In this document: positions 47,022-55,257 of the stretch, in pieces
Position numbering within the stretch: position 1 is the first letter of the stretch
Layout: each line of letters begins with the position of its first letter
The notes under the pieces: model-generated
Told to the model about the DNA's origin: nothing
Seen by the model: only the letters and a program-made list of their open reading frames with translations
Databases searched by the model: none
Made by a program: the position numbers and the translations under genes
DNA from: Nitrospirales bacterium
GTDB taxonomy: Bacteria; Nitrospirota; Nitrospiria; Nitrospirales; UBA8639
Reading direction: 5' to 3'
NCBI GenBank assembly: GCA_029261295.1
Contig: JAJDBP010000033.1
Span: 1 to 64,000, forward strand
Length of the DNA: 64,000 nucleotides

Positions 47022-47879
47022 TCACAGTTCATTCAGGATTTCCTGCCTTTTGTGTGTGTATTCCTTTTCGGTCAATAACCCTTCCTGCCGAAGTTTTTCT
47101 AACCTTTTTAGTCGTTGGGTAATAGAGTCCCTCGAATTGTACCTTGGAGAAAATGGCTGTATCTGTTGGTGGTTGGATGGTTCTTGAGCATGGCCAAATT
47201 TGTTGAGGGGAAAAATAAAGTGAGGGGGTTGAGGTGCCCACATTTCAGTGGCCAAGTTATGGGTGAGCTGTTGAGCGGGATCTAAAGCCTTTAAAGAATG
47301 TAGGGGATCGCCTATTTGAGACAGTGGATGATTTTTTGAGTTCTGAGGGGGATTCTTTGAGGGAACCGTTTGGCGGTAATTTGGGAGGAGGAGGTGAAGT
47401 TCATCTTTTTGTATATATAAACCACCGGACGTGAGTTCCCAAATGCCATTACCTCGCGGTGTTGCCCAATAAAAGGTCACAGTTTCAAGAGGGGTAGCCT
47501 GTTTTAGAGCTCTTGAAAAATGAAACGAAAAAAAACCTCGTTGTTCTTCGGAAAAAGCTTCCTGGGTTGAGGAAGACCTTCCGGCGATTCGATCAAGAAG
47601 TGACGAGGGTTGTACTTCGATATGCTGTAGAACGGAATCCAATTCCTCTGCCGTGGGTGTTGCAGGGTGCGAGTATTCAGGAGATCCTTCACGATACGTC
47701 ACTTCCAGCCCCACCATCTTGTCGGGTAGATTCATCAAAAACCGTGTTGCAGCTGGACCTGTGGTACAGCTGGTGGTTAGCCACCAAAATCCTAGACCAA
47801 GAATCACAAGGGACATTCTAAAAAAAGACTTTAAAAAATTCATAAACTGCCCGTACGTAACACGAAAAAATGATGACAT
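47022..47879 (-). CDS. Lipoprotein with a C-terminal SHOCT-like domain
   Basis: The 285-residue protein has a hydrophobic signal ending in the lipobox LTTSC, so it is probably anchored to a membrane by lipid. A second in-frame ATG at 47843 gives a shorter and more typical signal. The last 30 residues (ITQRLKRLEKLRQEGLLTEK plus EYTHKRQEIL) match the SHOCT pattern, a short oligomerisation helix pair. The middle part has no known motif. It is divergent from the porin-cytochrome gene, sharing a 127-base intergenic region. Confidence 0.72.
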   Translation of the reverse strand: MSSFFRVTYGQFMNFLKSFFRMSLVILGLGFWWLTTSCTTGPAATRFLMNLPDKMVGLEVTYREGSPEYSHPATPTAEELDSVLQHIEVQPSSLLDRIAGRSSSTQEAFSEEQRGFFSFHFSRALKQATPLETVTFYWATPRGNGIWELTSGGLYIQKDELHLLLPNYRQTVPSKNPPQNSKNHPLSQIGDPLHSLKALDPAQQLTHNLATEMWAPQPPHFIFPLNKFGHAQEPSNHQQIQPFSPRYNSRDSITQRLKRLEKLRQEGLLTEKEYTHKRQEILNEL

Positions 47880-48006
47880 AAGACTTTAAGAATGTAACAC
47901 TATTTTTCATTGAGGAATAGAATTGATCTTCTGATTGGACGGTCAGGGCGATCTTTAGGCCATCGGACATTCAGGCCTTACATACTTTTCAACAGGGTAT
48001 AAATAG

Positions 48007-49383
48007 ATGACAAATGTTGAAAGATTCTTTCATCCAAGTCTCAAAACAGTTTTGGCCTTAGGATTTGTCCTCTTTGTCACATCGTTTCCTCTGAGGGTTC
48101 CTGAGGCTGAGGCCCTTCCGGCATTTGCCAGAAAATATCAGGTGAATTGCAATGTGTGTCATACTCGGCCACCTCGACTCAATCCCTTTGGAGAGCAATT
48201 TTTAGAAAATGGCTATCAAATGCCCGGAACGGAAGATGGGGGTATTGTTGCCAAGCTCAAATATGGCGATGTCACGTTAGATGACGTCTCGAATTATTTT
48301 GCCGTCTTATTTGGCGTGGATGGAGTTACCAATGTGAACCTCAAGCGAGAAGTGCCAGGCTCTGAAGATCTTACAGAACTTGGTACTCCTGCGATTGTTC
48401 GTCTATTTACCACTGGAACAGTGACAGAAAACGTTGGTTTCTTTGTGGATATGACGTCTATTTTTAGTCGATCGAGTGATGTGGAAATAGGGAGAGCCTT
48501 TATTACCCTCAATAATCTTGGAGGCATGGACTGGGCGCATCTTCGCGTGGGGCGCTTGGATCCTTCTGCCTATTTTTCCATGGCCAGGGGGCGTCCCCAT
48601 TGGGTACCAGTAGGTCCGAAGTTTGCCCCTCCATTCGGGTCATTTGCCACGCCGACCGTGACGCAATGGTCGTTATTTCAGAGTGCCTATGCGTCAAAAT
48701 TCTATGGATTGTTTGATCGGAGTGGCGCGTTTATCATGCCATTCGATTCCACGCTCTATAATTCTCCTGAAGAGGTCGGGATTGATGTCCATGGTCGGCC
48801 TTTTGGAGATTGGTTCCTTTATCAGGTTGGGGTATTAAACGGCGGAAATGAACGGGCAGGGGATTCGAATAATTCCAAAGATTGGTATGTGATGACCCGT
48901 TTTGATTACACCCAATCCGCGTATCTCTCGGTGAATCTTTCAGGATTTGGCTATTTTGGGAACCACAATGCCAAGGTTTTAGGTGGAGCGGATGTGAGCC
49001 GGAGTCGGTATGGGGTTGGCGCGAGGGTGCGCTATAAGTGGTTGGATGTCTATGGGGCTTATACTATTGATCGTGTAACGGATTTACCTACTGGCATGGA
49101 AGCAATATTTGACTCGACCGCTACGGGTGTCACGGTTGAAGCGCATGCCTTGGTTGCTGATCGAGTGTTAATTGGGACACGGTTTGACCACATGGATGCG
49201 GGTGGTTTATTAGCCACTCGCAAAAGTGCCACATTTGTTGGCCTACAGGCCAAATATTATCTTCGCTCGAATATGTGGTTTACGATTCGTGACGATTTCA
49301 ATGTGCGAGATTCGGAAGGTGGAAGGAGTGCGGCTCGCAATTTGCGAAATAGGTTTAATGTGTCGATAGACCTAGTGTTTTAA
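48007..49383 (+). CDS. Monohaem cytochrome-porin fusion (Cyc2-like architecture)
   Basis: The 458-residue protein has a signal peptide cleaved after about residue 36 (PEAEA). Next comes one c-type haem site, C48-N-V-C-H52, in the frame LPAFARKYQVNCNVCHTRPP and then LNPFGEQFLENGY. The rest consists of alternating beta strands with many aromatic and Gly residues, and it ends in SIDLVF, the terminal-Phe signal of outer-membrane barrels. The PxFAR-CxxCH-NPFG pattern followed by a porin is that of the Cyc2-type fused cytochrome-porins that move electrons across the outer membrane. The substrate is unknown. Two exported redox proteins follow. Confidence 0.75.
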   Translation: MTNVERFFHPSLKTVLALGFVLFVTSFPLRVPEAEALPAFARKYQVNCNVCHTRPPRLNPFGEQFLENGYQMPGTEDGGIVAKLKYGDVTLDDVSNYFAVLFGVDGVTNVNLKREVPGSEDLTELGTPAIVRLFTTGTVTENVGFFVDMTSIFSRSSDVEIGRAFITLNNLGGMDWAHLRVGRLDPSAYFSMARGRPHWVPVGPKFAPPFGSFATPTVTQWSLFQSAYASKFYGLFDRSGAFIMPFDSTLYNSPEEVGIDVHGRPFGDWFLYQVGVLNGGNERAGDSNNSKDWYVMTRFDYTQSAYLSVNLSGFGYFGNHNAKVLGGADVSRSRYGVGARVRYKWLDVYGAYTIDRVTDLPTGMEAIFDSTATGVTVEAHALVADRVLIGTRFDHMDAGGLLATRKSATFVGLQAKYYLRSNMWFTIRDDFNVRDSEGGRSAARNLRNRFNVSIDLVF

Positions 49384-49398
49384 AGGAGAATCCTGTTC

Positions 49399-50160
49399 AT
49401 GAAGGCATTTTGGAAAAACCTTACAATGGCTTTTGGATTGGTCCTTGTTTTGACTTCTATCGTGGGAGCTTCTGAAGTCACGGAACATGATATTCAGCAA
49501 GGAAAGAGCATTTATGAACGATCATGTTTGATATGTCATGGGGAATCCGGAAAAGGTGATGGGCCTGCTGCATTTTACAACGCGGCATTTTCCGCTCCAC
49601 GGGCTAGGGATTTCACGGTTGGCAACTTCAAATTTCGTTCAACTGTTTCTGGTAGTCTTCCGTTGGATGAAGATATTTTTCGAACAATTACGAATGGGAT
49701 TCCTGGCACAATGCCCTCGTTTAGTGGATTATCATCAGAGCAACGCTGGCAGGTAGTGGCCTATATCAAAACCTTCTATGGTGGATTTCAGGAAGAAATC
49801 CCCGAGGTCATCAAACTAGCAGGTCTTCCTATCCTTTCTGCCGCCGAAAGCGTGCGACGTGGCAAGATTCTGTTTCAAGATATGGATTGTCATAGTTGTC
49901 ATGGGAGACAGGGGCGTGGCGACGGTAAGGTGGCCTTGGCGGGAGAATTACATGATAGTCGAGACTTGCCAATTTCGCCCAATGATTTGACCAATCCTAC
50001 TGGATGGAAAAATGGCGCAACGGCTAGCGATGTGGTCCGAACACTTTTTACAGGACTAGATGGGACTCCGATGCCTTCCTACGAAAGCCAATTGATAGGG
50101 CATGAAGACGACGCCTGGCATCTAGCCAATTACCTGCTTTCTTTATCCGGCCAAAACTAA
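49399..50160 (+). CDS. Periplasmic dihaem c-type cytochrome
   Basis: The 253-residue protein has a signal peptide (cleavage near residue 24) and two cytochrome c domains. Haem sites are C43-L-I-C-H47 and C164-H-S-C-H168. Probable distal methionines are in GTMPSF (Met105) and GTPMPSY (Met225). GESGKGDGPAAF and GRQGRGDGK after the haem motifs are typical of class I cytochromes of electron-transfer chains. It lies 15 bases after the porin-cytochrome gene, with AAAGGAG upstream, and could take electrons from it. Confidence 0.88.
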   Translation: MKAFWKNLTMAFGLVLVLTSIVGASEVTEHDIQQGKSIYERSCLICHGESGKGDGPAAFYNAAFSAPRARDFTVGNFKFRSTVSGSLPLDEDIFRTITNGIPGTMPSFSGLSSEQRWQVVAYIKTFYGGFQEEIPEVIKLAGLPILSAAESVRRGKILFQDMDCHSCHGRQGRGDGKVALAGELHDSRDLPISPNDLTNPTGWKNGATASDVVRTLFTGLDGTPMPSYESQLIGHEDDAWHLANYLLSLSGQN

Positions 50161-50201
50161 TAAACCTCTCTGGGCTCGTTTTTTTTGGTTTTTAATGAAA
50201 T

Positions 50202-50942
50202 ATGGCTTTGATTCAAAATATTTGGGTTCCTGGTCGACAAATCTTCTCACTTTTTTTTAGGAGTGCCATTCTCTCTCTCAGTCTCTGGAGTGGTCATGGA
50301 TTGGCTGCCGTCGAGAATATTTATGCTGGCACACTTGAAGGGGAAGTCCATTTTACAGGCCAAAAACCTCGTCCAACGGTCATGAAAGTCGTGAAAGACC
50401 AGGATCACTGTGGGACTAAGGTCAGTATTCAGACCGTACGGCTTCATGGTGCTTATGGAGCGTTAAGCGATGCAGTTGTGACTGTGGAAGGTATGAGTAC
50501 AAACCCCAAGCCTGAAAAGGCTCAACGTCCGGTCCTCAATATGCGGTGTGCTTTTTCTCCTCGTATAAGTGTGGCACGGAAAGGGCAAGAAGTAGAAGTT
50601 CGAAATCAAGACCCGATCCTCCACAATACCCATATTAAATATGGGAGACGGACCTTTTTGAACGTGGCTCAGGTTCCGAGTGGAAAGCCGATTATTAAAC
50701 GACTAAAAAAATCAGGTCTCCACGCCATTCAGTGTGATAAGCATGTGTTTATGCAGGCCTATCTCCATGTGTTTTCCCATCCTTTTTATACTTTGACGAA
50801 CCAAACTGGAACGTTTCAGATCCCTGATATTCCTCCAGGGACTCATACGATCAGGGTGTGGCATGAAACTTTGGGAATTCTTAAAAAGGTTGTGAAGATC
50901 CCCCAAAAGGGTACCACTCGTATTCAGTTTACCTATCCCTAA
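50202..50942 (+). CDS. Exported cupredoxin-like protein
   Basis: The 246-residue protein has a long signal (to about Ala36) and a cupredoxin-like fold. Candidate copper ligands are His141 or His144 in NQDPILHNTH, Cys178 and His181 in QCDKH, and Met184 in VFMQAY; this His-Cys-His-Met set is that of type 1 copper sites. The C-terminal segment (FQIPDIPPGTHTIRVWHETL) resembles a carboxypeptidase-regulatory-like domain. It follows the two cytochrome genes by 41 bases and may be their redox partner. Two further Cys residues (70 and 116) could form a disulphide. Confidence 0.75.
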   Translation: MALIQNIWVPGRQIFSLFFRSAILSLSLWSGHGLAAVENIYAGTLEGEVHFTGQKPRPTVMKVVKDQDHCGTKVSIQTVRLHGAYGALSDAVVTVEGMSTNPKPEKAQRPVLNMRCAFSPRISVARKGQEVEVRNQDPILHNTHIKYGRRTFLNVAQVPSGKPIIKRLKKSGLHAIQCDKHVFMQAYLHVFSHPFYTLTNQTGTFQIPDIPPGTHTIRVWHETLGILKKVVKIPQKGTTRIQFTYP

Positions 50943-51162: not shown

Positions 51163-54100
51163 ATGAAGAACCCTTTGGTTTGGCTATCACGCAAATGGCG
51201 GGGCAGCGTCGTGTTTCGCATTTCTTCCAGTTTGATCTTTTCGATGGGACTGTTGCTATTAATTGGGGCGGTACTTATTGGTTATGGACAACGTGAGTTG
51301 CTTCAAGAGGCATTTCGGGAGCGAGGCGTGGCGGTGGCCAGAACCTTTTCGACGATCGGGTCTGCAGCTATTTTGGATAATTTGTATCGCTTTCAAGAAG
51401 CCATGTCGCGCTATGCGAAAGACACGGATCTTCAAATATTAGAAATCATTGATGAAGATAATATGGTTATTTCTTCTTTGCAGCCGACCGTCATTGGCAC
51501 CACGATATGGGATGACCCTCATTTAACAGAAGCTAGGCGTATGAGGTCGGAGGTGCAAGCCTTTGTCGACACTCCGGCCAATGGGATTATGTTCGTCGTC
51601 ATTGAGCCTCTATTGGACCAGGGAGAAATTGTGGCGTGGGTTCGGGTGGGGTTTTCGATGAATCGACTGTATCAAAAAGAATTGGAGCTGTGGGTGGGGC
51701 TCATGGTTATGGCTTGTATCTTTATCGGACTTGCCATCTTTGGTGTGAGAAAAGGGCTCTTTCAGATAGTGCCATTTTTACAGGGGATGATTGAAAAACT
51801 TCAGGGAGTGGCAAGGGTTACAGAGAAAGTCATTCCACGCAGCGAGTGGTTTTCTAGTAAGCCAATCCTAAAGGGTTTGATCGAGGAAAATATGGAGGGT
51901 GAGGTTGAGCAATTGGCCGGTGTGGCTAACCGAACGGCTAGCTTATTGGAGGATCGAACCAAAGCTCTCCAGCGGTTAATGGAGGCTCAAGAAACTAAAA
52001 ACCAGGAATTGACCCGTTTGGCTTCATTTCCTGAAATGAATCCTAATCCTGTTATCGAACTGGATATTAAAGGGCAGGTAACTTATGTCAATCCAGCAGG
52101 AAGCCTTGTGTTTCCTGAGCTATCTCATCTGGGTCTTGGGCACCCTGGCTTAGAGAAGGTGGTTAATGCGTTAGAAGCTGTCCTATCTGGCGAGGAAAAG
52201 ATGATTGTTCAAGAGGTTTCACTGTCTGATCGAGTGTTTGAGGCTCGGATTACTCTCGTGGAAGACAGTCACGTATTGCGAATCTATCTTCATGAAATTA
52301 CGCAGCGAAAAATGGCGGAGGAGCAAGTTCGAACAACGGCTCGTGAGTTAGAGATTTATAATCGAGAATTGGCGCAGTCACGTGATGCTGCATTAGAAGC
52401 GGCCACTGCGAAAACTGAATTTTTGGCCATGATGAGTCATGAAATCCGAACGCCAATGAATGGAGTGATTGGGATGACTGGTCTGCTCCTGGAGTCGAGT
52501 TTGGATCCCGAGCAACGAAAAATGACAGAAACGGTTCGTGTTTCTGGGGAAGCTCTGCTCACGATCATTAATGATATTTTAGATTTTTCAAAAATTGAAT
52601 CTGGGAAACTTGAATTGGAAGAGATCCCATTCGATCCCCAAGTCTGCATTGAGGAGGTCTTAGAGTTGCTTGCAGAGAGAGCTAATAGTAAAAACTTAGA
52701 ACTGACAAACTGGATTTTCCAGAACGTGCCGACTACCGTGCTGGGCGACCCAGGGCGATTTCGCCAGGTCCTCATGAATCTTGTGGCCAATGCAATAAAG
52801 TTTACCGAAGTAGGAGAAGTGTCTGTTCAGGTCGCATTAGTCAGTGAAAATGATCATGAAGTGGAATTGGATGTGAAGATTATTGATACAGGAATTGGTC
52901 TGACTCCTGAGCAACAAAGCAAACTTTTCCAATCATTCACTCAGGCGGATGGGTCAACAACTCGGAAGTATGGAGGGACAGGATTGGGCTTAGCTATCTC
53001 AAAGCAACTGGTGGAGGCCATGAATGGCACCATTAGTCTTTTCAGTGAACTTGGCCAGGGCAGCTGCTTCTCTTTGCAGTTTCGGTTTCGTCGGGCAGAA
53101 AGTTTGGCAGAGATTCAGGAACTTCCTCATGTGTTACAGGGACTCAGAATTTGTTGTGTGGATGATAACGAAACGAATCGGATGATCCTGTCTCATTATG
53201 CCCATGCCTGGGAGATGGAACCGGTATTAGCCGAAGGGGCGCAACAGGCGCTAGACATTTTACATGAACAGTTTCAGCAGGGAGCGCCTTGTGATCTGGC
53301 AATTTTGGATATGAACATGCCACAGATGAATGGGATGGATTTGGCAAAAGTTATTAAAGCTGACCCTGATTTGCAGAATCTGAAACTCGTGTTGCTCACC
53401 TCTAGTGGGCTTCGAGGTGATTCGGCTCGATCGAGAAATGTTGGATTTGAGGCATATCTGAGCAAGCCGGTTAGGAAAGGGGATTTGCGAGCAAGCTTGG
53501 AAATGGTGATGACCCATTCAACAACAAATGAAAAACGCGACTCCACAGATAGGAGAGAGGCCGAAGGGTCCATTGGTCAATCAGTTCAGGGTGTACCTAG
53601 GCATATTTTAGTGGTGGACGACCATGTGGTGAACCAACAGTTAGCTCAGATGATGCTAGAACGATTGGGACATCGAGTTGATGTAGTGGGGAATGGGTTC
53701 GAGGCTGTAGACGCCGTGAAGCGGATTCCCTATCAGCTGGTTTTAATGGACTGCCAGATGCCAGAAATGGATGGGTATGATGCTACCAGGACTATTCGGG
53801 AGTGGGAACTGCAAGTAGGGACAAGTAGTCAGGTGAATATGGGATCGAAAATGGGAGAAACTCCCACGCCAGTTGGAACTTTTGACTCCTCACACGACAC
53901 TCTACCCAATCCTCACATTCCTATAGTGGCGATGACCGCTAATGCCATGAAAGGGGATCGAGAGAAATGCCTTTCAGCCGGGATGGATGATTATCTGAGT
54001 AAGCCCATCAAGCATGAAGAACTTGCTGTGATGGTTGCCAAGTGGTTGCCGGCTAAAAAACACGGTGAGGACAGTATTACTGACTCAGTAGATGTATCGA

Positions 54101-54537
54101 ATTCCAAAAAATCCGAGAAACTCATAAAGAAAGAAAAAGATGACGCGTTCTCATTGAATGGCCAGACGGGCGTCTCTGAGCCCATTCTACCCTTGCATCT
54201 GATTGACGAATGGGAGCTTGCTGGGGGCAAGGAGTTTGTGGTGAAGATAGTGACTCAATTTGTCAATGATGCCATGGTGTGTGTTGAGAACATTCAAATC
54301 GCGGTAGATACTCAGCAAGCAAGTGATATGCAGGAAGCAGCTCATGGCTTGAAAGGAATGGCAGCAAATATGGGTTTGCCAGAGTTAGCTGAGTTGGCGC
54401 ATCAAATGGAAATTTTAGCTCGTGAGCAAAATCTCATTAAGAGCCCTTCCCTATTTGAATTGATGCAAAAAGAATTTGTTCGTGTGCAAACTGCTTTGCA
54501 ACAGTTGTTAGATTCAAGCCAGCCTCTTTCCCAATAA
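51163..54537 (+). CDS. Tripartite hybrid sensor histidine kinase (BarA-like)
   Basis: The 1124-residue protein has two membrane helices (about 20-43 and 174-194) around a periplasmic sensor region. A PAS-like segment (about 290-385) and a HisKA domain follow, with phospho-acceptor His426 in [15 protein letters not shown]. The HATPase domain has N-box [11 protein letters not shown] and G-boxes DTGIG and GGTGLGL. Two receiver domains have Asp716 in [12 protein letters not shown] and Asp863 in [15 protein letters not shown], and an HPt domain has His1061 in AAHGLKGMA. This is the full BarA-type phosphorelay in one chain. No response regulator gene is beside it, so its output partner lies elsewhere. 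It follows the redox cluster and might sense redox state. Confidence 0.9.
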
Positions 54538-55257
54538 TTTCACTTATACTTGAATTTCCACCAACCCACTAAGCAATCTTCCCACAGTTTTGGCTGATGT
54601 ATTTCGTAGGCAGCTCTATAAGCTGTCCTAACAGTTACTAAAATTTTTGAATAAAGATTCAGGGAAGTTGATGCTTGAAATGGCATGGTCTTTTTAAGGG
54701 AAGGTGACTCTATCGACTGTTCCCAGAAGTTGGTATCCATCTTTCAGAAACCGTTCTCCAGTTCGATGGAGTCTGGGGGCGCGGGTATACCAGACGGTGC
54801 AATTTGCCTCATATTTTCTGGCGAAGGGGGGTATAGCCTCGGCGTTGGGAATGATAAATAGCTGACTGACCAATACGAATCAGAAAGAGACAAAAATTTG
54901 TGTAGCTATCTCTGAATTTAGCCGCGTGAAATACATGGGATTCAGAGAGAATGTGTAGAGCAGATTGTCAGGCGAAAGACTAGAATAAATATGGATCAGG
55001 TTGGAAACTATGTCAATAAAAAACAAGGCTTTTCTCGCACTCTGCGTTGAGGAAGGAACAGGTAAGAATTGAGGCAGAAAGGTGGCCTTACTGAGTTCAA
55101 GTGCTCAATTTTTTATCGACAAAATTGGCGGATGATTTAGTCGTGAGAAATTATGAGAAAGCCGATGTTGTCATAGGGTCGTTTGGCTTGCCACAGAAGG
55201 GTATTCCTAGTATGCTCGGAGCTAAATCCCCTAATGGTATGGAGGAAAAACGGATTC
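54538..55257. other. 720-base stretch without a recognised gene
   Basis: I see no convincing gene. A minus-strand frame of 66 codons (54540-54740) has no motif and a weak ribosome site. Two short plus-strand frames starting at 54991 and 55010 have about 20 codons each and are not rich in Phe or Tyr, so they are not good attenuator leaders for pheA. The upstream extension of the pheA frame to 55183 is also judged non-coding. The region separates the sensor kinase from the aromatic operon and may hold the pheA promoter, but none is clear. Confidence 0.5.

Follow-up and report, generated by a model that had tools for sequence, protein, structure and literature searches.

The A. ferrooxidans rus operon (cyc2-cyc1-cup-coxBACD-rus) combines Cyc2 with a dihaem cytochrome and a copper protein (PMC10654088). 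Cyc2 proteins have been defined by the motif AxPxFAR[QK][TY], a CXXCH haem site, a PxL motif, a length above 365 aa and a 16-strand porin; iron oxidase activity is biochemically known for members of the family, and the function of its divergent (Cluster 3) homologues has been called most uncertain (PMC8406198). The presence of Cyc2 in Nitrospirales, and of cyc2-like genes in the nitrite-oxidizing family UBA8639, has already been reported (PMC9040806, PMC11995701). The stretch of 64,000 nucleotides analysed here (the window), from a Nitrospirales bacterium of UBA8639, resembles the rus operon in that a Cyc2-type porin, a dihaem cytochrome and a copper protein are encoded together, with cyc2 first and the genes for the dihaem cytochrome and the copper protein following. 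Whereas the rus operon feeds a haem-copper oxidase, its cox (aa3) genes are missing from the window cassette, where a kinase gene comes next instead, and no cox genes occur elsewhere in the window. In further contrast to the rus operon, the dihaem protein, by its best match, belongs with Kustc0458, the copper protein is amicyanin-like with C-x2-H-x2-M spacing and an extra C-terminal domain, and the host is a nitrite oxidizer. The cassette is best read as a Cyc2-based set with its own carriers, which would work like the rus operon but through different proteins. No description of a Cyc2-Kustc0458-type-amicyanin cassette was found in the open-access literature searched; the preliminary remark that the set is not a described system holds for this exact combination of carriers but not for the architecture, which is that of the rus operon (PMC10654088), nor for cyc2-like genes in nitrite-oxidizing Nitrospirales (PMC9040806, PMC11995701).

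The genes for the porin (P), the dihaem cytochrome (D) and the copper protein (C) are plus-strand open reading frames at positions 48007-49383, 49399-50160 and 50202-50942, with intergenic gaps of 15 and 41 bases. The preliminary description was accurate in coordinates, strand and gaps, in its haem counts (one CXXCH in the first protein, two in the second) and in proposing a type 1 copper site in the third. By eye the N-termini of the proteins resemble signal peptides, and an N-terminal helix is predicted ahead of the mature domains of the porin and the copper protein. The cassette genes are under purifying selection (dN 0.15 for the porin, against a dS of ~2.2 that is near saturation). The host is a nitrite oxidizer, as its genome encodes a Nitrospira-type NxrA of 1145 aa that matches Kuenenia NxrA end to end (1567 bits). 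Its close relatives in our named collection of genomes are the marine Nitrospirales MAGs OFTM76, OFTM334 and SZUA-215, and the cassette is also present there in Candidatus Nitrospira defluvii (FP929003, at ~784-787 kb), a cultured organism; viral contigs yielded no relative.

The porin (458 aa) consists of a signal peptide, a haem domain at residues ~36-78 and a barrel of ~16 strands. Its signature, at 48112-48162 on the plus strand, reads ALPAFARKY..CNVCHTRPPRL (ALPAFARKYQVNCNVCHTRPPRL), with AxPxFAR[QK][TY] upstream of CXXCH and PxL downstream, as in the published definition (PMC8406198). The strict pattern is found in 31 of 36 porin homologues, and the other five are near-misses. No Pfam model matches the porin, but its AF2 model is a barrel (mean pLDDT 77, with the haem domain itself modelled at low confidence) whose Foldseek matches are general porins (E 2.8e-12), so that the length and the predicted strands also agree with those of Cyc2. 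By the published motif, the protein is a Cyc2-type fused monohaem cytochrome-porin, for which Fe(II) oxidation, a mark of Cyc2 together with a potential near 200 mV, may be expected. The same motifs, single haem and porin barrel are shared with Mariprofundus Cyc2 and Leptospirillum Cyt572, whereas the window porin belongs to a distinct branch, mostly of Nitrospirota. Apart from the His of CXXCH, no Met or His that could serve as the distal haem ligand is invariant among the 36 homologues.

The second gene encodes a predicted periplasmic dihaem cytochrome c of 253 aa, with His/Met ligands on both haems and a Pfam Cytochrome_CBB3 match of 80.8 bits. Both CXXCH sites and one Met per haem are invariant in 32 dihaem sequences; in a further homologue (L051) the Met of the second haem is replaced by His. 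Among solved structures the nearest is chain B of 6h5l (E 1.7e-47 in a sequence search, 1.5e-62 in a profile search), which we take to be Kustc0458, the dihaem partner of the HAO-like protein Kustc0457 of Kuenenia. The window protein is a clear full-length relative of Kustc0458, but its partners are a porin and a copper protein, whereas that of Kustc0458 is the octahaem HAO-like Kustc0457. For kinship with the dihaem cytochromes c4, the type of Cyc1, a profile search of PDB sequences returned no entry named c4 at E <= 0.001, a result that leaves room for remote kinship.

The third gene encodes a predicted type 1 copper protein of 246 aa, in which an N-terminal beta region precedes an amicyanin/plastocyanin-like cupredoxin domain (residues ~105-192) and a C-terminal carboxypeptidase-regulatory/transthyretin-like domain. 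The putative copper ligands H141, C178, H181 and M184 (50622-50753, plus strand) are invariant in 30 of 30 sequences and line up with the amicyanin ligands (HN and C-x2-H-x2-M). In the AF2 model (mean pLDDT 88.8) the cupredoxin domain lies in the centre and superimposes on plastocyanin (Z 11.7, rmsd 1.8 A over 84 residues) and amicyanin (Z ~10.9), so that fold and ligands together predict a His-Cys-His-Met site on a Greek-key barrel. Amicyanin and plastocyanin differ from the window protein in that the latter has extra beta domains on both sides of this fold, and no methylamine dehydrogenase context was seen around its gene. In rusticyanin the type 1 copper spacing is C-x4-H-x4-M, whereas all 30 copper protein sequences have C-x2-H-x2-M, and a profile search of PDB sequences returned amicyanins but no rusticyanin at E <= 1, which is still compatible with remote kinship. 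C70 and C116 are also invariant in the homologues and could form a disulphide. The host genome encodes a large family of copper proteins of this sort. An apparent dihaem-copper fusion of 481 aa (L079) was rejected as Rosetta-stone evidence, since its dihaem C-terminus is out of frame and looks like a frameshift.

The three genes occur together well beyond the window. A survey of 245 sampled Nitrospirota genomes with a porin cut-off of E <= 1e-50 gave 22 porin matches in 20 genomes, a patchy distribution; a dihaem gene directly adjoins the porin gene in 21 of these matches, and the remaining one ends at a contig edge. Within Nitrospirales the copper gene is part of the cassette and adjoins every intact porin match, but it adjoins none of the seven matches outside Nitrospirales. 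In the named collection a dihaem gene comes after the porin gene in 31 loci of Nitrospirota, one of KSB1, two of Gammaproteobacteria and one of Gemmatimonadota, whereas in five gammaproteobacterial loci, including that of Ca. Tenderia, the porin gene lacks an adjoining dihaem gene; such counts are not independent trials, because common descent explains part of them. The pairwise distances of P, D and C are correlated (Mantel r 0.67-0.82), and in MAG OFTM76 several cassettes each retain P, D and C lineages of their own. Relatives also have the rearranged orders C-HK-P-D, P-D-HK-C and C-P-D-HK (HK, histidine kinase gene), and the linkage therefore survives shuffling. Chance gene order for P-D-C is rejected by the co-occurrence counts and the correlated distances. 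Far from being rarely found together elsewhere, which would have spoken against the preliminary description, the genes co-occur in Nitrospirota, Gammaproteobacteria and Gemmatimonadota and evolve as a unit. Another family of the same class is represented by a Cyc2-dihaem pair that lacks a copper gene and lies near a heavy-metal P-type ATPase (L133, 3582-9654), and a distant Cyc2-dihaem-copper triad is followed by a chemotaxis receptor in place of the kinase (L125, 5636-10656).

The preliminary three-gene set was correct but incomplete, as its neighbourhood also includes a kinase gene and a divergent lipoprotein gene. The gene at 51163-54537 (plus strand) encodes a hybrid histidine kinase with a sCache-like sensor, HisKA, HATPase, receiver and Hpt domains, and the orthologues beside the cassette in relatives are 60-66% identical to it. 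Of 28 informative Nitrospirota loci, 27 have a histidine kinase gene adjoining the cassette (a hand count from the table, in which L088 and L089 are near duplicates), and the hybrid kinase is a conserved fourth member of the cassette in Nitrospirales. On the other side, the minus-strand gene at 47022-47879 encodes a probable lipoprotein with a SHOCT-like C-terminus; its family lies beside almost all of the distant Cyc2-like porins (~30% identical) in Nitrospirota relatives, L031 being the exception, and is a candidate Cyc2 accessory or assembly factor. A weak promoter-like site is predicted between this gene and the porin gene (47894-47923, plus strand), within a non-coding block conserved in five orthologous loci.

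Beyond the kinase lies the decayed 5' end of a second cyc2 (54703-54924, minus strand), which is 62% identical to the porin of L070, with 71% DNA identity over 195 nt; its CXXCH has become CTVWY and it contains one internal stop. Its closest relatives are the porins of second cassettes in L070 and L072, and it sits where relatives carry an inverted second cassette, between the kinase gene and pheA (the window order is kinase, relic, pheA); by this likeness and placement it is identified as the remnant of a second, inverted cassette. The contigs of the first and second cassettes in OFTM76 and OFTM334 share an exact end overlap of 111 bases inside the kinase gene. This overlap fits P-D-C-kinase facing C'-D'-P'-pheA, an arrangement that is likely but not proven, because the occurrence of the same 111 bases in both MAGs points to a break in the assembly graph.

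No terminal oxidase gene is located beside the cassette within the window, but related genes elsewhere are linked to respiration. In Ca. Kutchimonas (L101, Gemmatimonadota), a CcoN-like gene and a CcoO-dihaem fusion come 99 bases behind P-D-C, with a heavy-metal (copper-type) P-type ATPase farther downstream. A gammaproteobacterium (L110) has P-D-C-D-c and, 0.8 kb further on, genes of CcoN-like and FixO-like proteins. These are the only two loci with cbb3-type genes after P-D-C. Porin-less D-C pairs in other Nitrospirota cluster with genes for NosZ (TIGR04244, 814-818 bits) and with bd-like and CcoN-like genes. In two clusters of other Nitrospirota (L123, 2689-5352, and L130, 9532-12189) a Kustc0458-type dihaem gene stands directly beside nosZ, and amicyanin-like copper genes occur in the same cluster. 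In the host genome itself, the neighbour of a bd-like oxidase gene (L119, 8243-10144; C9) encodes a fusion of a D-type dihaem domain with an EB_dh (NxrC-like) domain, and open reading frames of ~600-650 aa, similar in length to this fusion, match the dihaem profile in most sampled Nitrospirales genomes. Because D-C recurs beside NosZ, bd-like and cbb3-like genes, it is read as a general periplasmic carrier pair for which the Cyc2 porin is one input, and it is chiefly this linkage to terminal oxidase and reductase loci that argues for electrons being passed into respiration.

The path proposed in the preliminary description, from the surface through the barrel to periplasmic carriers, is the reading best supported by the identities of the proteins, the conservation of their ligands, their evolution as a unit and their linkage to terminal reductases elsewhere; from these we infer the direction of flow, Fe(II) as donor, the order of dihaem protein before copper protein, entry into the host's bd-like oxidase and the role of the kinase. 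We consider it probable that the cassette is an extracellular electron-uptake module, most likely with Fe(II) as donor. A dissolved reductant, most likely Fe(II), would enter the Cyc2-type barrel and reduce the porin's single haem at the periplasmic mouth of the barrel; the electron would then cross the periplasm on the dihaem cytochrome and be passed or shared by the amicyanin-like copper protein into the cytochrome c or terminal oxidase pool. The hybrid kinase next to the cassette probably regulates the module or reads its state. In this nitrite oxidizer the module would give access to a second electron donor in addition to nitrite. Counting against uptake are the distance at which the porin's branch appears to stand from the biochemically tested Cyc2 proteins, the lack of an oxidase gene beside the cassette or of an invariant distal haem ligand, and the patchy distribution.

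The constant neighbour of the cassette in Nitrospirales is a kinase and not an enzyme, which fits sensing as well. The triad may be a surface sensor of redox state or metal that reports external redox conditions or Fe(II) to the hybrid kinase (in one lineage to a chemotaxis receptor) and does not serve respiration. Besides the near-constant presence of the kinase, this alternative draws on a D-C-kinase unit without a porin in G030, on a distant P-D-C followed by an MCP in G175, on the single kinase that two inverted cassettes probably share in OFTM76 and OFTM334, and on the iron sensing by Cyc2 that has been raised for Sideroxydans (PMC12016527). It is nevertheless unlikely, since outside Nitrospirales the triad runs into cbb3-type oxidase genes and not kinases, and D-C serves NosZ, bd-like and cbb3-like loci. 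Protective oxidation of Fe(II) or other metal at the surface, without energy conservation, would suit an accessory gene set of patchy distribution with a decayed second copy, but a periplasmic chain made up of two dedicated carriers, with oxidase links elsewhere, exceeds the needs of detoxification and makes this alternative quite improbable. Export of electrons, in which the chain would run outward to an external acceptor, is very improbable, as a type 1 copper carrier is usually of high potential and poor for export, and the triads are linked to oxidases. Neither ligands nor gene order fix the direction, and conduits of porin and cytochrome such as Mtr can work in either direction (PMC10734462), but the tested Cyc2 proteins oxidize Fe(II) (PMC8406198).

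Cyc2 genes serve as markers of iron oxidation. For the branch to which the window porin belongs, the conserved cassette names two candidate carriers that are tied to an oxidase in two other phyla, so that the full chain can be reconstituted and tested. Because the cassette is conserved and like the rus chain, these nitrite oxidizers are probably also able to take up electrons from the exterior. More tentatively, some nitrite-oxidizing Nitrospirales may possess a second, extracellular lithotrophy, in which a patchy and sometimes doubled cassette with a shared sensor kinase would feed electrons from Fe(II) or solid surfaces into the nitrite-oxidizing respiratory chain. If this is true, some nitrite oxidizers, including the cultured N. 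defluvii, would use external electrons, and nitrogen and iron cycling would be linked in one cell.
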